22,529 bases of DNA from a virus. A model generated the notes under the pieces. It saw only the letters and a program-made list of their open reading frames with translations, did not search any database and was not told the origin of the DNA. Of the stretch, positions 1 through 10,290 are shown piece by piece (within the stretch, counting starts at the first letter, position 1; each line of letters opens with the position of its first letter). The stretch is taken from IMG/VR virus record IMGVR_UViG_3300042197_001045, positions 1-22,529 of that record; one strand, given 5' to 3'. A program made the translations under genes and the position numbers.

Positions 1-500
1 GTCGCCTTCTTAATGGTCTGATATAGTCCGATATATTTCGGTTCCGTAATCAACTGTAATGACCTAATACGACCTATTTGTTTAATATGGTCCATTATGA
101 TTTGTTGTCCTAAAGAATTAGTTGTGTTTTCTAAAAACTTACTAAAATTATTTACTCGTTCTATTACTATTTTAGGCACACTAACGGACACAACCTTGTT
201 TTTTTTTAATGATTCTAATTCAGTAATAAGGTTTAGTTTACCTTGAGACAACTTAAAATTTAACACTACTGCTTTTTCAATAGCACTTTTTATAACAGGA
301 AGTTTCTTATCTAATAGGTTTTTCATAACTTTACGAAACTCTAATGTTTGCGCTTGTTGAAAACTTTGCCAATCATTTAGTGGTTTATCATAATTACGAA
401 ATAAAAGTTTGTAGGATAAAATCTTTGCTTCACTTTCTATTTCAGCGAACGCAGTTCCTACTAACTCTGCAAGTTCGTCTATTTGTTTCTTTTTGCTCAT
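1..500 (-). CDS. Probable minor head / head morphogenesis protein (partial, C-terminus outside window)
   Basis: An open frame runs from an ATG at 500 to the window edge without a stop (166 codons seen), so this is the N-terminal part of a longer protein. It begins MSKKKQIDELAEL and is mostly helical and charged. The last visible segment, YIGLYQTIKKAT, resembles a stretch found in Firmicutes phage minor capsid proteins (Phage_min_cap2 type), and its place after the portal and small head-region genes fits such a role. The upstream gene stops at 504, three bases away; the ribosome binding site is weak and A-rich. The family call is inference from position and a short resemblance. A head-fibre or scaffold-related protein is possible. 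Confidence 0.55.
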   Translation of the reverse strand, partial: MSKKKQIDELAELVGTAFAEIESEAKILSYKLLFRNYDKPLNDWQSFQQAQTLEFRKVMKNLLDKKLPVIKSAIEKAVVLNFKLSQGKLNLITELESLKKNKVVSVSVPKIVIERVNNFSKFLENTTNSLGQQIIMDHIKQIGRIRSLQLITEPKYIGLYQTIKKA

Positions 501-503
501 TTT

Positions 504-1097
504 TTAATTTTTGTTTTCATCAAAATATTCGTCATCAAGCAAGTTTTCGCGTCTCATATAATTATAAACATCGCTATTTGATAAAGGTTGTCCTGATGTT
601 TTTGCTTCATACAATAAATCATTAATTATTCTACTAATTGCTCTTTGTGATAATTTAGGGTTTAATCTTTTTGCAGCAACTTCAATTTGTTGTTGTTGAT
701 TATTTTGTTTTGGTTGAGGTTGTTGAGTAGGTTTAACTTCAGGTTTATTTAGTTCCTCAATTTGTTCAGGAGTAACGCCGAGAGTTTCGTCAATCTTTGC
801 TGCTTGGTCTAATTTAAAACGAGCAACTCCTGATTGTGGGTCTCTAATGTTAAATGTTTTCTTTTCTCCACCAACATTACCTGCCAATAAAACTTCTTTG
901 TTTGTTTTGGGATTAGCAAAACGAAGTCCGTCTCCAACTACCTTTATATCAGGTGCATTAGAACTTTCTACCGCTTTTACTTGACTTGGAAATGGCCAAT
1001 ATCCTAATTTATTTGCTAAATTAGTTTTGTTTTTTTCCGTCATCATAATTTTATCAATCATTAAGTTGCCTGGTTTTATTTTTGGTTTTGTGTTCAT
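504..1097 (-). CDS. Hypothetical phage protein in head gene cluster (197 aa)
   Basis: No family recognised. The protein opens with the basic tag MNTKPKIKPGN seen in its neighbours. A folded-looking part follows (about 30-110), with GDGLRFANPKTNKEVLLAG and several glycines suggesting beta structure. Then comes a low-complexity Q/N/P-rich linker (about 120-140), and a C-terminal helical part (about 140-190) with RAISRIINDLLYEA and an acidic end. It is the longest member of the tagged small-protein string downstream of the portal. It could be a capsid-associated, scaffold-like or internal virion protein; none of these can be shown from sequence. Confidence 0.75.
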   Translation of the reverse strand: MNTKPKIKPGNLMIDKIMMTEKNKTNLANKLGYWPFPSQVKAVESSNAPDIKVVGDGLRFANPKTNKEVLLAGNVGGEKKTFNIRDPQSGVARFKLDQAAKIDETLGVTPEQIEELNKPEVKPTQQPQPKQNNQQQQIEVAAKRLNPKLSQRAISRIINDLLYEAKTSGQPLSNSDVYNYMRRENLLDDEYFDENKN

Positions 1098-1101
1098 ATA
1101 A

Positions 1102-1380
1102 TTACCATTTTACTTTATTTGCCCAATAAGCAGCAGACATTTTACCTTTTTTAATGTTGTCGGCGTGTCTTGCTTTAAAACTTTCTTTTCGGTTTTTTTC
1201 TTTTTCAGTTTTAGGATTATCTCCTGCACCTTGAACACCTTGTTGTCCAAAACGAATAGTTTTTACTTTTTCGCCTTCTTTTGCCACAACAACGTGAGAT
1301 TTTGTAGGGTGATTAGGTGTGCGTTTGGGTTTATTATAACCCGACACACCAACTCTTTTTAATATTGGTTTTGGATTCAT
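1102..1380 (-). CDS. Small basic hypothetical protein with KPK tag (92 aa)
   Basis: Not recognised. It starts MNPKPILKRVGVSGYNKPKRTPNHP, so it carries two copies of a K-P-K/R motif near the N-terminus. The middle reads TIRFGQQGVQGAGDNPKTEKEKNRKESFKA. In phages, FGxxGVxGAG-like segments of this kind recur in small proteins near head genes; I mention this as recollection, not a database result. The end is lysine-rich (ADNIKKGKMSAAYWANKVKW). Its ribosome binding site (AAGAAGGA) lies inside the end of the 37-residue gene upstream, and the junction reads TAATATG. Confidence 0.75.
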   Translation of the reverse strand: MNPKPILKRVGVSGYNKPKRTPNHPTKSHVVVAKEGEKVKTIRFGQQGVQGAGDNPKTEKEKNRKESFKARHADNIKKGKMSAAYWANKVKW

Positions 1381-1381
1381 A

Positions 1382-1495
1382 TTATTTATCCTTCTTCATT
1401 GGAACACATAAATCTTTACCGTTGCGAGTTCCTGCATAACGATAACCTTCCCAACACGCTTTGCCGTCTGAACCTTTTTTCTTTTTTGGTTTCAT
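1382..1495 (-). CDS. Micro-protein with CWEGYRYAGTRNGKDLC motif (37 aa)
   Basis: Short gene read directly from the sequence. ATG at 1495-1493, TAA at 1384-1382. It is all lysine at the front (MKPKKKKGSDGKA), followed by CWEGYRYAGTRNGKDLCVPM and KKDK. Two cysteines bracket an aromatic, glycine-rich core. I recall similar C-W-x-G-Y-x-x-x-G-T segments from small proteins or C-terminal tails in other phages and large viruses. Its start overlaps the previous stop as ATGA (1492-1495), so translation is probably coupled. A small metal-free or disulfide-bonded nucleic-acid-binding peptide is possible, but no function is known. Confidence 0.7.
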   Translation of the reverse strand: MKPKKKKGSDGKACWEGYRYAGTRNGKDLCVPMKKDK

Positions 1496-1737
1496 TTTTT
1501 CTTACCTCTATTTGGGTCGTGAGTGGTCATAAACCACACTAAGTCGTCAGGGGTAATACCCATTTTTTCCGCCTGGTCAATAATTTCTTTTGCTCGTTTA
1601 TAATCAATACCGAACCTACTATAATTATCAGGAACAAATTCCATTCTACCTGGGTCAACTTTAGATATTAGATTTCTTTCTTTTGAGAAATCAATGACGT
1701 TTGGATTTTTTGGTTTTGGAGGTTTATAGAAAGACAT
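1492..1737 (-). CDS. Small hypothetical protein with SFYKPPKPK tag (81 aa)
   Basis: Not recognised. It starts MSFYKPPKPKNPNVIDFSK, a variant of the tag shared along this string. The middle includes YSRFGIDYKRAKEIIDQAEKMGITPDDLVWFM, which looks like a short helical domain (about 45-72). It ends HDPNRGKKK, again a lysine tail. The stop TGA overlaps the start of the 37-residue gene (ATGA), and its own start follows the upstream stop as TAATATG. It may be a minor virion or assembly protein; that rests on position only. Confidence 0.75.
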   Translation of the reverse strand: MSFYKPPKPKNPNVIDFSKERNLISKVDPGRMEFVPDNYSRFGIDYKRAKEIIDQAEKMGITPDDLVWFMTTHDPNRGKKK

Positions 1738-1738
1738 A

Positions 1739-1987
1739 TTATTTTTTGCCTTTGTTCATTAAAGCAAACAACGCTTGTTGAAACTTCATAAATTCAGGAT
1801 TGTTAATTAATGATTCGGGAGCGGTTGTTGGTGCTGATTCAAAATCAGGCACAGTTGCACCTGGTGATGATTCTTGTTGAACAGGCATAGGTCTTTGTCC
1901 TAATGCTGGTTGATATTGAGCAACCTTGTTCATTCTATCCATAATTGCTTGTTGCATAGGAGATTTTAATTTAGGTTTTTGATACAT
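1739..1987 (-). CDS. Small hypothetical protein with YQKPKLK tag (82 aa)
   Basis: Not recognised. It begins MYQKPKLKSPMQQAIMDRM: the basic tag followed at once by a helix. The middle is proline-, serine- and glutamate-rich (QESSPGATVPDFESAPTTAP), probably disordered. The end forms a helix (NPEFMKFQQALFALM) closed by NKGKK. The lysine tail codons and the following TAATATG junction supply the start context of the next gene. The layout of tag, helix, loose linker and helix would suit a peptide that binds another head protein. Function unknown. Confidence 0.75.
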   Translation of the reverse strand: MYQKPKLKSPMQQAIMDRMNKVAQYQPALGQRPMPVQQESSPGATVPDFESAPTTAPESLINNPEFMKFQQALFALMNKGKK

Positions 1988-1988
1988 A

Positions 1989-2438
1989 TTATTTTACCTT
2001 CTTCTTTTTAGATTTATCAGCAATGTATTGTTTATACATTTGTTCGGCAAATTGTAGGTCAAATTGTCTTAAATAATCTCCAAATTTGTCTCTTTTATCG
2101 CTTCCTTGAAATACTTCTTCAAATTGTTCAAATATTTCGTTTCCACGTCTACCTTTTGGTAAAGCAAATTCACCAACTAATTCTTCCATATAACTGCTTC
2201 TATCTCCACCTTGGTCTAAATAATCTTGTTTAAAACTTTCAAAATCTTTAAATCTATCAAAATGATAATCACTCATTTTTGGTTTTACACCTTGGTTAAT
2301 TTTATTATAAACATCTTGAGAAAATTTTTCAAACACTTTTGGGTCATTTAATAACTTTGGATTAGAAAATGGTTTCCAAAAATCATTTTGTTTAGGTTTG
2401 GGTTTAACTAATTTTGGTTTTTTATAAAAGTTTTCCAT
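1989..2438 (-). CDS. Hypothetical protein with ENFYKKPKLVKPKPK tag (149 aa)
   Basis: Not recognised. This is the clearest carrier of the tag: MENFYKKPKLVKPKPKQND. The rest is rich in Phe, Tyr, Asp and Lys and looks mostly helical, with repeated short acidic-aromatic segments such as FDRFKDFESFKQDYL and FEQFEEVFQ. The C-terminus is KSKKKKVK, whose codons give an AAGAAGAAGG ribosome binding site for the next gene. A start at 2438 is backed by GAGGAAAG about 7 bases upstream, inside the end of the 47-residue gene. Probable head-region accessory protein. Confidence 0.78.
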   Translation of the reverse strand: MENFYKKPKLVKPKPKQNDFWKPFSNPKLLNDPKVFEKFSQDVYNKINQGVKPKMSDYHFDRFKDFESFKQDYLDQGGDRSSYMEELVGEFALPKGRRGNEIFEQFEEVFQGSDKRDKFGDYLRQFDLQFAEQMYKQYIADKSKKKKVK

Positions 2439-2439
2439 A

Positions 2440-2583
2440 TTATCTTTCCTCGTCTTTTAAAGCCGCCTTCATTGCTTTACGTTCTTTTTTAGAATCCTTA
2501 ACCTTGCTTTTTCCAATGTCTCTACCCCACGATTTTACTTTGGGACGAGAATAGAAATTCATCTTTTCAATTTGATTTGGCAT
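2440..2583 (-). CDS. Small basic protein after portal (47 aa)
   Basis: Read directly from the sequence. ATG at 2583-2581 with GAGGT about 7 bases upstream; TAA at 2442-2440. Residues 8-19 (MNFYSRPKVKSW) match the tag found at the very N-terminus of the next genes, so a second start at residue 8 (2562) is possible, though the ribosome binding site favours 2583. The remainder (GRDIGKSKVKDSKKERKAMKAALKDEER) is a strongly basic, probably helical tail. It sits 18 bases after the portal stop and is the first member of the tagged string. No family recognised. Confidence 0.7.
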   Translation of the reverse strand: MPNQIEKMNFYSRPKVKSWGRDIGKSKVKDSKKERKAMKAALKDEER

Positions 2584-2601
2584 AATACTACCTCTAATTC
2601 A

Positions 2602-4230
2602 TTATATACTTTCTTCTTCAGGTAATGCAACAGGATTAGGTTGGGTGCCTTCTTGATAATTGGGAGAATTCAATAACATCTCCATTGGATTCATAGCGCC
2701 TTGTCCCATAAACATAGTGATATATTGAATTTCTTTTTGTTTCGCTTCTTCATCTAATGTGTCGCCCCATAATAATTCCACATAACGTTCAATGGATAAA
2801 GCGCCTGATTGTAATGCACCAGATAACGCCATTAGTTGATTTTCAAATGATGGGTTAGCAAATTCTTCAAATTCAACACCGATTTCATAATCATTAAACT
2901 GAGCAATGACGGGATTAATCATATAATCCTCCACCTTTAAAGCAAGCATAATAACTTTTTCAAGTAAATCTTTTTGTCTCATAATGATATTGTTGCGAGT
3001 CATAATCGTAACTTTTTCTTTTTCTCGTTGTGCATCAGCGTTATCACGTTTAGCAATATCAATACCCATAGTGGCAGGAGATAGAATGCCTGTTAAGATA
3101 AACGATAAAATGCTTTGTGCTTCAGAAGAATATTGAACAACGTTTAATGCTGGTTGCGTTACTTCTATTTTACCGGTTCGTTCTCCATCTCCGTTTCTAC
3201 CAGCAGGAGTGGCAACATAAGTTCGGTCATAACGAGCAGGAAGTTTTGGTTGTCCCGTTGGTGTGCGTTCTAATAAATCCACAGGATAATATTCTACCGG
3301 TGTAGATTTTCTAATTGTATTAGCAGATTGTGAAATGGTTTGGTCTAAATCATCAAATAAATCTATCTTGCCTGTATAAATAGAACGTCCATATCCTTCA
3401 TATATTGTGTCCTTGAAAAACATTGAGGGGACCCCAAGGATTTCGTTTAAACCACTAAAGACCATATCTTGTAATCCTTCGGTTTCAGGCAAAGTTTCTA
3501 GTGATACTTCGTCCGCTTCTTTTTCCCATTCATCTTCTTTTCTACCTGGTTTAAGTTGATATAGTTTATATTCAATATAAGAATTACCTTCGTCAATGAA
3601 ACGATGGTCAACCAAAGCATATGCTTTTTTATCAGGTCCTGTAAAATAATCTACAAATTTAATACCAAAAATACGTTTAGATACAATTTCAAACTTAACA
3701 TTACGAGCATCATAAAATGTAATAATTGGTTTTTTAGAAATTTGTGGGTCAATGTTAATTTTCCAAGCACCGAAACCCGTCACGAGTGTAAGAGGCATTT
3801 GTTCTTGATTGATAGTATCAAACAATTCATTTTCTTTTACAAGATTATCAATTCGTTGTTGAATCATTGGGTCATCAGAAGTAAAAACAGGAGTTCCAAT
3901 TGCGTTAACTAATGTTTCCACAATAGCACGAGGAACACCGCTATGACTTCTTTTAATGGAGTTTTCAGTAGATGAAATGCCCCAAAAATATTCTTTTTTG
4001 TTGCGATTAAAAATAGGTTCAGTTTGAAACTCACGGAATTGTCCTTGAGTATAAAGGTTAAGTAATTCATCACTATCGCCACTATACCAAATCAAATATT
4101 CTCTTAGTTTTTGTTTTCTAATTTTTTCATCATCGTTAATAAACCATAAACGATTGTCGTATTGTTTTGGTAAATTGCCCATATTGTTTACTCCTAACCA
4201 ATTTCTTATTCTATCACGAAACCAACCCAT
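2602..4230 (-). CDS. Phage portal protein, SPP1 gp6-like
   Basis: 542 residues, a usual size for portals. Portals form the dodecameric ring at one capsid vertex through which DNA enters and leaves and to which the terminase docks. The call rests on its place right after the large terminase subunit. It is supported by the N-terminal region typical of SPP1 gp6-like portals: RRSHSGV-type segment near 95, VETLVNAIGTPVFTSDDP (about 105-120), a LVKENELFDTINQE helix, and VTGFGAWKINIDP. A long acidic/helical stem region (about 280-440) and a loose Pro/Asn-rich C-terminus follow. The start at 4230 has AGAGGT just upstream. The spacing to terL (41 bases) holds a possible promoter. Confidence 0.9.
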   Translation of the reverse strand: MGWFRDRIRNWLGVNNMGNLPKQYDNRLWFINDDEKIRKQKLREYLIWYSGDSDELLNLYTQGQFREFQTEPIFNRNKKEYFWGISSTENSIKRSHSGVPRAIVETLVNAIGTPVFTSDDPMIQQRIDNLVKENELFDTINQEQMPLTLVTGFGAWKINIDPQISKKPIITFYDARNVKFEIVSKRIFGIKFVDYFTGPDKKAYALVDHRFIDEGNSYIEYKLYQLKPGRKEDEWEKEADEVSLETLPETEGLQDMVFSGLNEILGVPSMFFKDTIYEGYGRSIYTGKIDLFDDLDQTISQSANTIRKSTPVEYYPVDLLERTPTGQPKLPARYDRTYVATPAGRNGDGERTGKIEVTQPALNVVQYSSEAQSILSFILTGILSPATMGIDIAKRDNADAQREKEKVTIMTRNNIIMRQKDLLEKVIMLALKVEDYMINPVIAQFNDYEIGVEFEEFANPSFENQLMALSGALQSGALSIERYVELLWGDTLDEEAKQKEIQYITMFMGQGAMNPMEMLLNSPNYQEGTQPNPVALPEEESI

Positions 4231-4247
4231 ATTTATACCTCTTTTCT

Positions 4248-4275
4248 ATTGTATCATATGAAAACAATATTTCAA
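4248..4275 (-). promoter_or_regulatory. Possible promoter before portal
   Basis: On the minus strand TTGAAA (4275-4270) is followed after 16 bases by TACAAT (4253-4248). The -35 box overlaps the terL stop. A start about seven bases later would leave only a short leader containing the AGAGGT ribosome binding site of the portal gene. A 6-base inverted repeat (4247-4252 / 4264-4269) lies within it. It may give extra transcription of head genes; read-through from terL is equally possible. Confidence 0.4.
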
Positions 4276-5738
4276 CGTTCTTTAAACTGCGACCAGCGTT
4301 GTAATTGTTTAATCATACTTGCCCAACCATATTCGTTAGCATTTATTGCGTGGTCGTTAATATCTTCTCGTGCTGTTCCCTGACCTATACGTGAGTTTTT
4401 AAGTTCTCTTGATAAGTTAGGACACGCTTCACTGATTAAACATTCGTCCCAAGCCATTAATAACCTTATAATGTCTATACGGTTTTGTATTTTCATCTTA
4501 GTTGATGAACCAAAATACACATTAAACAAACCCTTTTGTCTCGCCATAAGTTCTAAACCTTGACGAAATCCTATATCAGCGCTATCAACCCACACATAAA
4601 TAAGACCCTTCATTAACTTTCGGTGGTCTTTATATAATTCTCTCCATTGAAAAATAGTATTAATTATTTCTTCCATAATTTGAGGTTCGGTTTTGGGAGA
4701 TGGAAGTCCTGCGTTGGTATGAAAATACTCATTAATAGAAACTAACTTAGAATAGTCGCTTGTTAGTCCGACAAGTTGCATAGAAGTAGCACTACGAATC
4801 ATCGTTGCGCCATCTTCGGGTTTCTTTATTTTGCCTTCTCCGTTGCCTAACCCTGTATCTATGCCGATAGCATAATCTACATATTGGTAATTGTTTGCTT
4901 GACCTCTTGAAATAATTAACTTATCGCTATACTCAGGATAACAAGCACCAGCAGCGTTTCCCCACATACCAAGTCCTTCAACCTTGAATATATCAGGCGC
5001 TCTACGAGATAATTCGTTCATAGCAGAGTCATATACATCTTTATCACGGAACTCATTTATCTTGTAGTTGTTAATCATTAGATATAAACCCTTACCATAG
5101 TCGCCTATGTAGTTGTCGTCAATTAATTCCATATAAGGTTCTCGCATTAAAGTTTCGTAATCATCTTCTAATCGCCCCTTAAAGAACTGCTGATATAACC
5201 ACGAGTCAATATTCCAAGGATTAAAGACCATTGTAATTTGATAAGTAACGCCCTCAGGTGGGATACCACGAATAGACCCATCAAGTTTTCTAAAGTCCTC
5301 ATATCCTTTAATTTCAAACGCTTCCTCGATATAAACTTTAGATAGCACTCCTGTTTCGACTGTAATCGAAGTTAAAGATGTTGGTTGATTCATACCACGA
5401 AATACAATGATTTGTCCTGTTGGTAAATAAACTATTTTTAACGGGTTGTTAATAATTTTAAATCGGTCTGCAATTCCCATTACGTTTAACCAACGCACAA
5501 TATTAGCAAAAGTAGATTGACGCTGAGTAGCATCGACCTGACGAATGATAAGCACATTGTTATTTTTGTTTTCCAAAATGTCCATTATAACTCGATAACC
5601 CATACCTATTACGGACTTTTTAGAGTTTCTTGAACCTTTTATTAATCTATACCGACCCTTAAAGTTCCAAAAATTATTATAACCTGCACCCACAAGTTGT
5701 TGCATACTGATTTGTTTTTTACTTGTCCTTGTTATCAT
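4272..5738 (-). CDS. terL: Terminase large subunit (PBSX/SPP1-like)
   Basis: 488 residues. The DNA-packaging motor, with an N-terminal ATPase and a C-terminal RNase H-like nuclease. Visible motifs: Walker A GSRNSKKS at 35-42 (the lysine-rich form usual in this family); Walker B VYIEEAFE at about 135-142 with the catalytic glutamates; nuclease aspartates in AIGIDTG (D294), VWVDSADIG (D385, D388) and INDHAIN (D462). All key residues are present, so the enzyme should be active. The start ATG at 5738 lies 20 bases inside the end of the small subunit gene and has an AGGT upstream. Adjacent terS and portal confirm the context. Confidence 0.95.
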   Translation of the reverse strand: MITRTSKKQISMQQLVGAGYNNFWNFKGRYRLIKGSRNSKKSVIGMGYRVIMDILENKNNNVLIIRQVDATQRQSTFANIVRWLNVMGIADRFKIINNPLKIVYLPTGQIIVFRGMNQPTSLTSITVETGVLSKVYIEEAFEIKGYEDFRKLDGSIRGIPPEGVTYQITMVFNPWNIDSWLYQQFFKGRLEDDYETLMREPYMELIDDNYIGDYGKGLYLMINNYKINEFRDKDVYDSAMNELSRRAPDIFKVEGLGMWGNAAGACYPEYSDKLIISRGQANNYQYVDYAIGIDTGLGNGEGKIKKPEDGATMIRSATSMQLVGLTSDYSKLVSINEYFHTNAGLPSPKTEPQIMEEIINTIFQWRELYKDHRKLMKGLIYVWVDSADIGFRQGLELMARQKGLFNVYFGSSTKMKIQNRIDIIRLLMAWDECLISEACPNLSRELKNSRIGQGTAREDINDHAINANEYGWASMIKQLQRWSQFKER

Positions 5739-6069
5739 CTTTCTTACCTACATCATTCACAATTTCTATCGGTTCCATAGCACCAATAAACTCGTGGTCC
5801 TTTTGTCCTAATATTTGTTTGCCTAACCAAATTGCCATTGAGGTATTGGTTTCAGCAAGTTTAAACTGTGCTCGTCTTAAACTCATTTTGCCCTTCGCTG
5901 ATTTCTTTTTATATAACTCCGCAAAACCCTCTTTATATTGTCGCTTACACCATCGTTCAATCGTATCTTCAGAGCAGTCAAAAAACGCAGCAATCTCAAC
6001 AAGAGTGCATTGTAAAGCACAGAGATTTTCAAACGCCTTTTGGTCTATTTCAATACGAGGTCTTGGCAC
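5719..6069 (-). CDS. terS: Terminase small subunit
   Basis: 116 residues. It selects and binds phage DNA for packaging. An N-terminal helix-turn-helix is visible (about 13-45: ALQCTLVEIAAFFDCSEDTIERW). It is followed by the KGKMSLRRAQFKLAE and MAIWLGKQILGQ helices typical of this family in Firmicutes phages, which drive oligomerisation. The C-terminus is charged. The start is a GTG at 6069, directly after the TAA of the upstream ParB-like gene, with AAGGTGAT as ribosome binding site. It overlaps terL by 20 bases. Confidence 0.9.
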   Translation of the reverse strand: MPRPRIEIDQKAFENLCALQCTLVEIAAFFDCSEDTIERWCKRQYKEGFAELYKKKSAKGKMSLRRAQFKLAETNTSMAIWLGKQILGQKDHEFIGAMEPIEIVNDVGKKDDNKDK

Positions 6070-6070
6070 A

Positions 6071-6598
6071 TTACATCACCTTCTTTAATAGGTGTGCTTC
6101 ACTATAACCTTCGGTGCCTTCTATCATCATCTTTAAGAAATCTTCACGACTAAAATTACTAAGACGGAATATTTCTTCAGGTTTCATACCTAATTGTTTA
6201 GATACTTCCGATACGCTCTTACCAGCATCAAGCAATTCTTTAATGATTGCTTTCATTGGGTCTAACAAGTGAGTTCCTCTTGCTCGGTTATGCGTAATAG
6301 TTCCATACATATCTTCGCTTTGGTCTTCGTGTTTAACAATAACCACAGGCACTAATCCACCTAACATTGTATGAAGTGGTTCTCGTCCTGACACAATCCA
6401 ACGATGAAATCCGTCAATAATTGTATAATCAGGTCTAACCACAATAGGCAAAGTCCAACCGTTAGTCATTATTGATTGAATAAGCAGTTGTAAGTTTTGT
6501 TCATTAACTACGTTAGGGTTATAGTTGTTAGGTTTTAATAATTCGCGTTTTACAAATCTAACATCTCGTAAAGGCGATAATAAATCTTTATTTTCCAT
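6071..6598 (-). CDS. ParB-like / IbrB-type protein
   Basis: 175 residues from the ATG at 6598. An in-frame ATG at 6634 would add 12 lysine-rich residues but overlaps the upstream gene by 47 bases, so I prefer 6598. It carries a ParB/sulfiredoxin-fold domain: LLKPNNYNPN, a helical LIQSIMTNGWTLPIVVR segment, and the hallmark IIDGFHRW (D62, H65, R66). The C-terminal part contains a helix-turn-helix-like SVSEVSKQLGMKPEEIFRLSNF. ParB-like domains of this kind pair with PAPS-reductase-like proteins in the IbrA/IbrB arrangement, and here the partner sits immediately upstream. Role in phages is not settled: gene regulation, or nucleotide/DNA chemistry, are options. Confidence 0.82.
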   Translation of the reverse strand: MENKDLLSPLRDVRFVKRELLKPNNYNPNVVNEQNLQLLIQSIMTNGWTLPIVVRPDYTIIDGFHRWIVSGREPLHTMLGGLVPVVIVKHEDQSEDMYGTITHNRARGTHLLDPMKAIIKELLDAGKSVSEVSKQLGMKPEEIFRLSNFSREDFLKMMIEGTEGYSEAHLLKKVM

Positions 6599-7742
6599 AT
6601 TTTTTTCTTCTTTCCGTTTCTTCCACTTTAACAAAATGGAATAATTGATTCAATAATGCTTGAGTGCTTCTACCTTTAGGGTCTCCACCATAAGCAATTT
6701 CATACATAAATTGAAAGATGCGTTTAGCGTGTGCTTCTCTTAACCCTGTAATAATTGCTCCGTGTTTAGTAAAAAACTTTCTAATTGTTTTTTGAATATC
6801 TTTTTGAGATGGAGTTATAAAGAAAGTATTGTTTTTTAATAATTCAAACACTTTAGTTTTATAATGATTAGAATCTCTTACTTCAATCGTTCCATCTTCG
6901 TTAGGTTTTACAACCTTTTCGGTTTTACGGAACATTTCAGTATCCCAATAAAGCGTAGCAAGATATGCGTTCGGTTCTCGTTTTAATATCTTATTAAACA
7001 ATTCGGGGTAAAACTCGGTCATTTGCACAAGAGACCTTGCTGTATCAATAGAAAAAAACTGACTGATACGAAGGTTCTTTTTAGTAAGTCCGATTTGATA
7101 CATAAATAGATAAGCATCGGGAAAATCTACTTTAAAATCTTTAATATAGCGCCATATATCAGAATCATAAAAATCATAAATAGGATATACATAATTATTA
7201 CCTTTGCTTCCTGCAATAGCATTTCTTCTTCTAAAACTTTCGCTTACTCGTAATCCCACAATATTCACACGACCTGAACAATATCGAGTTAAAAAATCTT
7301 GATAAGATTGTTCTCTCGGTCTAAATAATGGGTGTTGAGAAATAGCAAAACTTGGTTTAGGTCTAACCCACACATCTTTCTTGGTTTCGTCCCAACAAAT
7401 AAAACTTTCGTCATTTTGTAATAGATTAAAACAATTGAAGTGTTTATATTCCATAGCAAACCAACTAAACTTTGCACCAAGCGATAACCATTTTATACGC
7501 CACGACTTCATTACTTCTTCAACGGAGGGATATATTGCTTCCTCATCTACGAAAATAACTTCAATTCGTTTAGGGTCAATCTCTCCTGTTTTAGCAAGAC
7601 GATACATAAGGTCTGCTAAAACAATACTATCCTTACCTCCTGATAAAGATAGAGTTACGTCTTGTTTATTTTGAAACGAATTTATAATTCTTTGTTTTGC
7701 AATGGTCAATACATCTACGCCAAGATTAAACTTTTTAATCAA
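6588..7742 (-). CDS. PAPS reductase-like (IbrA-type) PP-loop protein
   Basis: 384 residues. The N-terminal adenine-nucleotide alpha-hydrolase fold is clear: PP-loop SGGKDS at 34-39, then IEVIFVDEEAIYPSVEE, a cysteine-containing FNCFNLL and FICWDETKKDVWVRPKP stretch, and GLRVSESFRRR. The C-terminal half (about 200-384) is helical and matches the overall shape of IbrA-like proteins with a DUF3440-type extension. Known relatives activate a substrate with ATP, and some (DndC) take part in DNA phosphorothioation; the substrate here is unknown. It overlaps a ParB-like gene at each end (8 bases upstream, 11 downstream), so the three are probably translated together. Confidence 0.87.
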   Translation of the reverse strand: MIKKFNLGVDVLTIAKQRIINSFQNKQDVTLSLSGGKDSIVLADLMYRLAKTGEIDPKRIEVIFVDEEAIYPSVEEVMKSWRIKWLSLGAKFSWFAMEYKHFNCFNLLQNDESFICWDETKKDVWVRPKPSFAISQHPLFRPREQSYQDFLTRYCSGRVNIVGLRVSESFRRRNAIAGSKGNNYVYPIYDFYDSDIWRYIKDFKVDFPDAYLFMYQIGLTKKNLRISQFFSIDTARSLVQMTEFYPELFNKILKREPNAYLATLYWDTEMFRKTEKVVKPNEDGTIEVRDSNHYKTKVFELLKNNTFFITPSQKDIQKTIRKFFTKHGAIITGLREAHAKRIFQFMYEIAYGGDPKGRSTQALLNQLFHFVKVEETERRKKYGK

Positions 7743-8337
7743 GTTTAATTACCTCACCGCATTTAGGACACACACAAGTTTTATGTTGAGGTGTCATTGG
7801 TTGAGGAGGTAGAGGTGTATCGGTTTCCCATTGCGTAGGTTTGGCGACTTGTTCATTTACTCGTTCTTGCGATTTGTCCATAGATTGTGAAACTTCAGGA
7901 CTTACAACACCGTAAGTATTTGCTTGAGTATTTGCTTCTTCTTCACTAAACATTACAAGTTTTAAACCTTCAGGGTCAAAACCTGCAATATCAAAATCAC
8001 CAAATCCTGTAATTTCTTTAATAAATAATTCAATATTAGGTTGGTCGTCCATTCCTAACTCATAAACTTTATTATCGGACAAGATTAGTTTCTTTTTATC
8101 CTTTTCATTTAAACCTGTAATTTTATAGGCATCGGCTTCAGTCCAATTTAAATGAACCATTGCGTCATACATACCATTACCGATTAGGATATTGTTATCT
8201 TCGTCTATAACTAAAGCACGAGTTTGACCAAACTGACTTATACTTCTTGCTAATTGTTTGATTTGTGCTTCAGGGTGGTATCTCACATTAACTGCTAATT
8301 TTTTTATGGTATTGAGTAATACCTTTTCTATTTTCAT
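7735..8337 (-). CDS. ParB-like protein with C-terminal CPxC knuckle
   Basis: 200 residues. N-terminal ParB-like domain (about 1-115): LNTIKKLAVNVRYHPE, IKQLARSISQFGQTRALVIDEDN, and ILIGNGMYDAMVHL. The position that is G-x-H-R in many ParB-fold proteins reads GNGMYDAM here, so the usual His-Arg pair is missing, as in several phage and methylase-linked relatives. A linker rich in Gln, Pro and Thr (about 135-185) leads to TCVCPKCGEVIKLD, a half zinc-ribbon. The start has AGAGGT upstream. It is the first gene of the ParB-PAPS-ParB cassette leading into the terminase genes, after a 183-base gap. Confidence 0.83.
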   Translation of the reverse strand: MKIEKVLLNTIKKLAVNVRYHPEAQIKQLARSISQFGQTRALVIDEDNNILIGNGMYDAMVHLNWTEADAYKITGLNEKDKKKLILSDNKVYELGMDDQPNIELFIKEITGFGDFDIAGFDPEGLKLVMFSEEEANTQANTYGVVSPEVSQSMDKSQERVNEQVAKPTQWETDTPLPPQPMTPQHKTCVCPKCGEVIKLD

Positions 8338-8520
8338 AATTTTACCTCTTTTTCCGTCATTTTTGGGTATTTAAGGGGTATTGACGTGTATTTAAACCCT
8401 ATTTTTAGGTCATTACAGACGTTTTAGGGGGTGGATAGGGGGGATATAGGGACTACCCCCTAAACCCTCTATAAACGTCTATAAATTACATTTAATGCCT
8501 ATATGCTGTTTTTACAGGTT
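8338..8520. other. Structured non-coding gap
   Basis: The longest gap in the window. It separates the importer genes from the ParB-PAPS-terminase run. I see no gene. It contains runs of G and C that stand out from the AT-rich surroundings, three ACGT-centred elements (near 8383, 8419 and 8475) and the inverted repeat listed separately. No convincing promoter was found on the minus strand, although one would be expected here. It may hold a terminator for the importer genes, a packaging site (cos/pac) or a replication start. Confidence 0.6.
8417..8480. repeat. Nested inverted repeat in gap before ParB gene
   Basis: TTTAGGGGGT (8423-8432) is the exact reverse complement of ACCCCCTAAA (8455-8464), with a 22-base loop. 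Outside it AGACGTTT (8417-8424) pairs with AAACGTCT (8473-8480), with eight unpaired bases (8465-8472) on one side. The inner stem is much more GC-rich than the rest. There is no T-run after the stem on the minus strand, so a classical rho-independent terminator is not supported. Confidence 0.6.
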
Positions 8521-9462
8521 TTAGGCGATATTTTGGTTAAAACGATTGGTGACGATTTGTTCGACAGTAATATCGGCACGAACTTCGCCACGAGCAATCA
8601 TCCAATCCAACCAATATTGTGCGTCTTCAATAATAACTTTATTAAAATCTTGGAACTTATAGTCATCAATATCTTCCACAGCGATACCGGTGTATTTAGA
8701 AACGATTTCTTTTGCTTCTTGTTGATTGTTTTTCACAAACTCGGCAACACGAGATAAAGCAGTTACGAATTTTGTCGCTTTTACTTCATCAGTATTTGCC
8801 CACACGGAGTTAATAAAGATTGTGCAGAATTGTTTTGCTCCAAAAACATCATAACCGGTCATAAAGGTTTTAACCTGAGCGACCTTATCACGAGTTCTCT
8901 TAGTCCAAGGTTGGATTAAACCAATAGCATCTACGCTACCTTGAAGTAATGCTTCTTCTTGTTGAGCAAAAGGAAGGGACACAAATGTTACGGCATCTTC
9001 TGCAATTCCTGCATCTTCTAATGCCTTTAACCAAGTATAGTGGAAAGACGACTTAACTAAATTGATAGCAATTCTTTTGCCTACTAAATCTTGAATTGTA
9101 TTAATATTGCTATCGGCACGAACGAAGAATGTTTCTAATGGCGTATCTTCAAATTCCGATTGAATATCAGCAACGCCGATAATCGGTAGATAACCACTGA
9201 CTGCGTTAATCTTTGCCATTGTTGAAACTAATGCACCCTGAACTTGACCACTTGCGACCATTTGAACAGCAGTAGCACCACCAGCAACGACATCAACTAA
9301 CTCGACTTCTACTCCTTCGTCCTCAAAGTATCCTTTGTCCATAGCAATATAGACAGGGTCATATACTTTAAGACCGACATATTTTACAACCGATGGAGTT
9401 TCGGTTGAACCACAAGACGCTAATAGCGTTGCGGCAATCACGATTAGAGATTTAACTTTCAT
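8521..9462 (-). CDS. ABC importer substrate-binding lipoprotein (SsuA/TauA/NMT1-like)
   Basis: 313 residues. A periplasmic-type binding protein anchored by a lipid: MKVKSLIVIAATLLASC is a short signal peptide with lipobox L14-A15-S16-C17. The mature part follows the NMT1/SsuA fold order: YVGLKVYDPVYIAMDKGYFEDEGVEVELV, GGATAVQMVASGQVQGALVS, then a second lobe with LVGKRIAINL, EDAGIAEDAVTFV, EEALLQGSVDAIGLIQPW and LSRVAEF. Members bind sulfonates, taurine, nitrate, bicarbonate or pyrimidine precursors; the ligand cannot be told from sequence. The permease gene lies five bases upstream. The gene looks less AT-rich in places (28 of 60 G+C in 9241-9300), which suggests recent acquisition. Unusual cargo for a phage. 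Confidence 0.9.
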   Translation of the reverse strand: MKVKSLIVIAATLLASCGSTETPSVVKYVGLKVYDPVYIAMDKGYFEDEGVEVELVDVVAGGATAVQMVASGQVQGALVSTMAKINAVSGYLPIIGVADIQSEFEDTPLETFFVRADSNINTIQDLVGKRIAINLVKSSFHYTWLKALEDAGIAEDAVTFVSLPFAQQEEALLQGSVDAIGLIQPWTKRTRDKVAQVKTFMTGYDVFGAKQFCTIFINSVWANTDEVKATKFVTALSRVAEFVKNNQQEAKEIVSKYTGIAVEDIDDYKFQDFNKVIIEDAQYWLDWMIARGEVRADITVEQIVTNRFNQNIA

Positions 9463-9467
9463 TGAAT

Positions 9468-10214
9468 TTATACCTCCTCTCTTAATCGTTTAATGAACAT
9501 ATCGAATATCACGTTAAAGGAAAGACCTACTAACGCAACGATTACGATATATGCATATACATTTGGATATTTGAATGAGTTGGTTTCCCACAATATCATA
9601 AAACCAAGACCACTCGTAGCACCCAACATCTCGCTCACAACAAGCGAGATAAATCCACCACTTATTCCTACCTTTATACCAGTCATTAGGTCAGGTAAGG
9701 CAAGTGGATAGATTATGTAAAACATTTTTTGAAGTTTAGTAGCACCGACATTCTCCGATGCTTCTATAACTTCTCTTGAAATCGAACGCAAACCTTTTAA
9801 TTGAGATAAAAAGATTGCGGGAAATGAAGTCCAAATAATAATAAAGATACGAGGCGCATCACTTAACCCCAATAAAACAATTAACAAAGGAAATAGAGTT
9901 ATAGCACTAACATTACGAAAAGAATCAAATATAATATTAAACATTCTATAAATGGAATTAGACCAATAACTTAACACCGCCATTATACTTCCTCCAATGG
10001 TCGCTATAAGTATACCATAAAACACAAGAATTACGGAAGACGTTAAATGTTTGATAAGTTCTTGCCCTGAAATAATGCCAATGAAAGAATTTATAATTTT
10101 ATCAAGAGACGGAATTGCAGGATTATTTAAAAAAAAAGAAAAAACTTGCCAAATTGTTAAAAAAACTATAATTCCTAAAATCGACAATGTATAGTTATGT
10201 ATAGTTTTGACCAT
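9468..10214 (-). CDS. ABC importer permease (SsuC/TauC-like)
   Basis: 248 residues with about six membrane segments (near 10-30, 55-85, 100-118, 120-137, 178-198 and 215-238). The cytoplasmic EAA loop that contacts the ATPase is present at about 151-175 (EASENVGATKLQKMFYIIYP, then LALPD), so it should dock to a nucleotide-binding subunit. None is encoded in the window; a host ATPase would be needed, unless the gene is elsewhere in the phage. It belongs with the binding protein downstream. The start at 10214 has AGGGG about 11 bases upstream. The first codons form one arm of a 19-base inverted repeat. Confidence 0.9.
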   Translation of the reverse strand: MVKTIHNYTLSILGIIVFLTIWQVFSFFLNNPAIPSLDKIINSFIGIISGQELIKHLTSSVILVFYGILIATIGGSIMAVLSYWSNSIYRMFNIIFDSFRNVSAITLFPLLIVLLGLSDAPRIFIIIWTSFPAIFLSQLKGLRSISREVIEASENVGATKLQKMFYIIYPLALPDLMTGIKVGISGGFISLVVSEMLGATSGLGFMILWETNSFKYPNVYAYIVIVALVGLSFNVIFDMFIKRLREEV

Positions 10215-10290
10215 TTTTCAATAACCCCTATATAATTCTTTCCTTTATATACTTTCTAAAAAACCCTACATACTATACATAACTATACAT
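10187..10290. repeat. 19-base inverted repeat around permease start
   Basis: ATGTATAGTTATGTATAGT (10187-10205) is the exact reverse complement of 10272-10290, with 66 bases between. Each arm is itself a tandem pair of a ten-base unit ATGTATAGTT. One arm lies in permease codons 4-10, the other upstream of the start. In the mRNA it would form a long stem with the permease ribosome binding site and ATG in the loop; in DNA it gives four half-sites for a regulator. Confidence 0.75.

Follow-up and report, generated by a model that had tools for sequence, protein, structure and literature searches.

Importers of the TauABC/SsuABC type in E. coli, represented among known structures by TauA (6ssy, 6st0, 6st1, 6stl), combine a substrate-binding protein (SBP) and a permease with a cognate ATPase, and the ligand residues of TauA are available as a comparison set (PMC6906117). 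Sharing of an ATPase has been described for importers of Gram-positive bacteria, in which MsmK (PMC4519317) or, together with Isd, FhuC (PMC10147376) serves SBP-permease sets encoded elsewhere. SaoXP (NF040733/NF040735, PMC13188914) are transporter subunits of uncertain substrate. Phage transport genes are already known; cyanophage PstS is a phage-encoded ABC binding protein that is host-derived, has no conserved synteny, and is thought to use host transporter parts (PMC10976474). In the Dnd and Dpd DNA-modification systems, PP-loop or other modification enzymes occur together with ParB-superfamily proteins (PMC10853773, PMC12839542). In the literature, no published description of a phage-only, ATPase-less importer beside a PP-loop/ParB cassette was found.

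Here, we analyzed a stretch of 22,529 nucleotides of viral DNA (IMG/VR record IMGVR_UViG_3300042197_001045), which is called the window throughout. It contains a permease gene and an SBP gene next to such a cassette (Table 1). The pair resembles TauABC/SsuABC in the fold of the SBP (TM 0.74-0.78 with TauA), the permease family and the EAA loop, and the phage SBP also retains the hinge Glu and the Ser/Thr-x-His-Tyr ligand loop. It differs in that an ATPase gene is missing, identity is 17-25%, the positions of Gln30 and Asp205 are changed, the SBP belongs to a phage-only clade, and the neighbours are PP-loop and ParB genes. Unlike cyanophage PstS, the pair is syntenic and far from cellular homologues. 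In the MsmK and FhuC/Isd systems both partners are cellular, whereas the orphan half is viral here.

Table 1. Features of the locus and their positions in the window
Feature	Position	Strand	Characteristics or basis
Importer permease, TauC/SsuC type (BPD_transp_1), 248 aa	9468..10214	-	Pfam, NCBIfam, EAA loop
Substrate-binding lipoprotein (SBP), NMT1/SsuA/TauA fold, 313 aa	8521..9462	-	Pfam, model, Foldseek
Inverted repeat	10187..10290	-	Perfect 19 bp arms; encloses permease start codon; strong mRNA hairpin
ParB1, ParB-like	7735..8337	-	C-terminal CPxCG zinc ribbon; next cassette gene
PAPS, PP-loop ATP-pyrophosphatase of the 'PAPS reductase' family	6588..7742	-	SGGKDS; phrog_2302
ParB2, ParB/Srx-fold protein	6071..6634	-	DGFHRW motif
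TerS, putative terminase small subunit	5719..6069	-	HTH; downstream module border
TerL, terminase large subunit	4272..5738	-	Terminase_3; marks neighbourhood as phage

The permease and binding-protein genes

Both open reading frames are intact. The SBP matched NMT1 (PF09084, E=7e-30) and the permease BPD_transp_1 (PF00528, E=2e-24) in Pfam. The EAA loop of the permease, which is the docking site for the ATPase (EASENVGATKLQKMFYIIYPLALP), was kept across relatives, and the lipobox of the window SBP reads LASC. Thus, a BPD_transp_1 permease with an EAA loop and a secreted SBP of the NMT1/SsuA fold, features of type I importers of the TauABC/SsuABC/NitT family, are both present. The first-pass annotation had proposed an intact SsuC/TauC-like permease with an EAA loop and an SsuA/NMT1-like binding protein with a full lipobox, and had located them between early genes and the terminase cassette without a nucleotide-binding subunit in the window. 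All of this was borne out: the order is replication/early genes, the pair, ParB-PAPS-ParB-TerS-TerL-portal, and PF00005 is absent from the window.

Significant NCBIfam matches of the pair included SsuA_fam (95.6 versus a curated cut-off of 163.5), TauC, SsuC, and SaoP, the best match of the permease (E=1e-35; 123 bits versus 295, so that it is no member of that family); SaoX scored 47 versus 300. Because all scores remained under the curated cut-offs, the two proteins are superfamily members that belong to none of the named families. An AlphaFold2 model of the SBP (mean pLDDT 88) grouped with TauA, SsuA, Thi5 and a thiamin-binding protein in Foldseek (TM 0.70-0.80); in a viral structure library, no TauA-like fold was found for it at a good TM.

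The start codon of the SBP gene lies 5 nt past the permease stop codon and is preceded by an AGGAGG motif that extends into the 3' end of the permease gene; translation of the two genes appears to be coupled. Both are under purifying selection. In the comparison of the window with a divergent phage (L005/L010), the SBPs were 67% identical, with a dN of about 0.28, and the permeases were 60% identical, with a dN of about 0.36; dS for the two genes was 1.6-2.1. Over the pairs compared, dN of the SBP was about 0.10-0.28 and dS about 1.5-1.6, and two other pairs showed similar or stronger constraint. The SBP is better conserved than the permease and contains many invariant polar residues.

The comparison with the TauA ligand residues gave a mixed picture. 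Glu106 (E110), Gly61 (G62) and the hydroxyl at Thr132 (S139) are kept, whereas Gln30 is replaced by L/F and Asp205 by C/S/T. From the set Gln30, Glu106, Thr132 and Asp205, only the Glu is therefore retained as such, and the replacement of Gln30 and Asp205 leaves a taurine importer unsupported; judged from these residues, a sulfur compound is only one candidate substrate. The SBP family has invariant residues of its own (D35, D99, Q101, S102, N134 and Q211, with K137 nearly invariant). Positions that bind the ligand in TauA are among the invariant ones of the family.

An ABC ATPase (PF00005) was found in 0 of the 25 viral records holding the pair (the window and 24 others) and in 14 of 14 control genomes; as the viral records are possibly incomplete, the absence is strong as a pattern and not proof for any single phage. 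The match lists of two additional contigs with the pair, L024 (C8) and L025 (C54), did not include PF00005 either. In the two nearest cellular operons inspected, the order was ATPase-SBP-permease with the ATPase adjoining. A search for an SsuB/TauB-like ATPase had been proposed in the first-pass annotation; a nearby ATPase gene that would turn the locus into an ordinary complete host operon was rejected, as there was none in the 25 records.

A recurring phage family and its cassette

Profile-guided scans revealed the pair in 24 IMG/VR contigs outside the window, in a prophage contig (L024), and in a contig of a Chloroflexota metagenome-assembled genome (MAG; L025). Near-duplicates are included in this number (L004 and the window, L020/L021, L034/L035). 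The permease adjoins the SBP in every contig found, the SBPs are 41-67% identical to that of the window, and the GC content of the contigs is 34-57%. A lipobox is present in most of these relatives; L016 and L025 are without one, and L015 has a cleavable-looking signal without a Cys, so that the lipid anchor does not extend throughout the family.

A chimera at the borders of the island, which the first-pass annotation had named as a possible refutation, was looked for, and the locus proved not to be one. Contig L004, which stems from a different IMG/VR sample, matches positions 1-10288 of the window at 100% identity; these span the border between SBP and ParB and the whole side from SBP to portal. 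The match breaks at 10288, inside the inverted repeat beside the permease start, and this break would fit a host operon fragment fused to phage DNA by assembly or binning. The divergent phage L005/L010 has the order hyp78-PERM-SBP-[PP-loop2]-ParB1-PAPS-ParB2-TerS-TerL-portal, which is that of the window plus an extra PP-loop gene after the SBP, and the permease-side border is therefore reproduced too. Amino acid identities to the window are 43-81%, nucleotide identity in the packaging genes is about 72%, and the contig further encodes a minor head protein, a scaffold and a major head protein. The pair thus occupies the matching locus in a related phage, as the earlier annotation had suggested checking. 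This synteny on both sides refutes an artefact, and the 24 further contigs and the low scores of cellular homologues (at most 147 bits versus 406-553 bits for intact family members) also speak against it; we regard its chance as negligible.

L024 is a prophage-like contig of a MAG from horse feces, with an integrase, a repressor, TerL and a capsid gene. An integrase, a CI-like repressor and a LysM/CAP gene are found near this prophage (L124:4571-7368). The LysM/CAP gene near the integrase suggests that the contig is Bacillota-like, although the MAG is labelled Bacteroidaceae. The window contains no tRNA.

In one scan of a species-level genome collection, only L024 and L025 contained matches to the phage-type SBP. 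Outside the family, scores reached at most the 147 bits mentioned above (samples: relatives of G019, the phylum of G020 and the phylum of G019). In a maximum-likelihood tree with limited cellular sampling that included no Bacillota, 20 phage-type SBPs formed one clade with a support of 100/100 and a long stem, and they did not nest near host homologues as does a host-derived auxiliary gene of the cyanophage PstS type. The SBP therefore represents a phage-only clade and not a recent host capture, and the pair looks like a lasting viral trait. Among GenBank phages, the best matches to the pair were 20-32% identical and mostly located in bacterial-looking bins. The transporter genes in the GenBank phage records OR845000, OR846590 and CAKLQH/CAKLQF resemble bacterial contamination.

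These results modify the first-pass annotation in several respects. Its statement on the rarity of importer genes is correct for cultured phages, but among metagenomic phages the family recurs. The proposed search against phage and bacterial sets yielded the phage-only clade. A phage-borne, ATPase-less, non-chimeric pair at a shared locus had been recognized correctly, whereas the phage-only SBP clade and the tie to the cassette had been missed. The finding is thus broader: the importer is specific to phages, has no ATPase of its own, and is linked to a cassette of PP-loop and ParB genes.

Cassette genes, followed by terminase genes, accompany the pair in 25 of 25 viral contigs. ParB1 and PAPS are both visible in 21 of these, and the others are short or cut at an end and contain at least one cassette gene each. 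The pair precedes the cassette or, in L019-L022 and L039, follows it; these two gene orders indicate that the linkage outlived rearrangement. It spans the full GC range given above and different terminases. Distance matrices were correlated for SBP and permease (r=0.77) and for SBP and PAPS (r=0.65, p=0.0005), to which shared phage ancestry contributes. Conversely, a PAPS profile scan confirmed 340 viral contigs, and the pair was present in 3 of the best 80, a set that is biased to close PAPS relatives and contains some cut loci. Because most phages with the PP-loop/ParB cassette are without the pair, the importer is an optional extra of a common cassette, which does not depend on it.

ParB2 is among the most conserved cassette members, with about 57-73% identity to the window protein in all of the compared phages except one (34%). 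Its motif resembles that of kinases of the ParB/Srx fold. The PAPS protein has a lone invariant cysteine (C104). Its model has low confidence (pLDDT 75, pTM 0.59), and therefore the weak matches to its nearest PDB folds, the sulfur-handling PP-loop enzymes TtuA, NcsA, PAPS reductase and LarE, count for little and are only suggestive. In L005 (L005:6304-7110), L006, L014, L015 and L016, the gap between SBP and ParB1 holds the gene for a second PP-loop protein, which has 259-270 aa, is phrog_424-like, and is absent from the window.

The combination of a PP-loop enzyme and a ParB-superfamily partner, as in modification modules of the Dnd/Dpd type, is present in the cassette, which also resembles IbrA/IbrB-like pairs of a PAPS reductase and a ParB protein. 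It differs from IbrA/IbrB, Dnd and Dpd in its two ParB-like proteins, the frequent second PP-loop protein, the phage-borne position before the terminase, and the added importer. On the Chloroflexota contig (L025:71-7543), the pair comes after genes for two AsnB-like amidotransferase/PP-loop proteins and for a protein that weakly matches a Spo11-like Toprim, and PAPS/ParB genes were not found on this contig. This neighbourhood of AsnB-like enzymes in place of PAPS/ParB makes a link to sulfur insecure.

Proposed function and alternative explanations

The 'PAPS reductases' of phages are usually described as auxiliary genes of sulfur metabolism, but which reaction they catalyse there has yet to be established. 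Our preferred reading, to which we assign a probability of about 0.52, is that the permease and the SBP form a two-subunit ABC importer that is specific to phages, belongs to the TauAC/SsuAC/NMT1 superfamily, works on a host ATPase and feeds the PP-loop/ParB enzymes. This reading is the most economical, and its elements have precedents in the ATPase sharing of importers (PMC4519317, PMC10147376), in cyanophage PstS with the host PstABC (PMC10976474) and in the joint occurrence of PP-loop and ParB-superfamily proteins in DNA modification (PMC10853773, PMC12839542). The permease dimer would dock a host ATPase of the TauB/SsuB/NrtD type via its EAA loop. The ligand of the lipoprotein would be a small organic compound, probably anionic or containing sulfur or nitrogen, and would be taken in during infection or lysogeny. 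Borrowing of a host ATPase, as the first-pass annotation had considered, would fit three observations: the EAA loop is retained, the genes are under purifying selection, and none of the 25 records has an ATPase. The later steps are weaker: the PP-loop/ParB enzymes might use the imported molecule as a substrate or as the donor of a group, and might act on phage DNA or on a nucleotide. A more novel but less likely extension of this reading is that the importer is a dedicated supply line for hypermodification of phage DNA or nucleotides, in which the PP-loop/ParB enzymes would couple the imported molecule to phage nucleic acid.

A more general explanation is that the pair is a nutrient moron, which takes up sulfur, nitrogen or vitamin precursors for host and phage with a borrowed host ATPase, and that the cassette is a mere neighbour. 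The SBP family imports sulfonates, taurine, nitrate and thiamine precursors, and with cyanophage PstS there is a precedent of a phage SBP that uses the host PstABC (PMC10976474). However, cassette genes accompany the pair in all viral contigs, irrespective of GC content, terminase and gene order and with correlated distances, which speaks against a mere neighbour, and the phage-only clade speaks against repeated capture of host genes. We therefore consider the nutrient moron unlikely.

The other two explanations both have a much lower probability. Phage lipoproteins that exclude superinfection exist, and the first-pass annotation had offered the blocking of superinfection as an alternative, in which the lipoprotein would exclude other phages at the surface with the permease as its anchor or target. 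The lipobox in the window and in most relatives would fit, but it is missing in L016 and L025, as is the Cys in L015; furthermore, the invariant residues include ligand-binding positions of TauA, the permease is retained with its EAA loop, and the cassette is left unexplained. This proposal has thus become weak and is very improbable. Alternatively, the phage subunits might interfere with uptake, either by forming unproductive hybrids with a host importer or by ATPase theft, and thereby shut an uptake route. The lack of an ATPase in every record would be compatible with such a role, but a decoy would need neither an SBP that is better conserved than the permease nor its many invariant polar residues, and we give interference only a slim chance.

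If the preferred reading of an importer that feeds the cassette is true, viruses would here encode most of a pump and leave the motor to the host, which is rare, and this arrangement would be conserved in many lineages of phages. The link between the cassette and an importer found only in phages suggests that the cassette needs a specific molecule from outside, and the ligand of the SBP can be found by ordinary assays.

Repeats at the borders of the pair

The predicted hairpin at the permease start had a z of -5.5 in the window and of -2.4 in L005. Part of the inverted repeat is retained in L005, where one A-U pair appears to have changed to G-C; only this nearest relative shares any of the element, and a wider test across the family revealed no consistent hairpin. 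An Rfam search for a riboswitch gave no match in the window or in L005. An invertible promoter or segment was considered and rejected: a 108-bp reverse-orientation match to L005 at 10183-10289 stems largely from the palindromic arms. On the other side of the pair, the spacer after the SBP gene (8338-8520) and its counterpart in the divergent phage (L005:6022-6303) contain many G-runs and CCCTAAA-like repeats, which are possible G-quadruplexes and are unlike the rest of the window.
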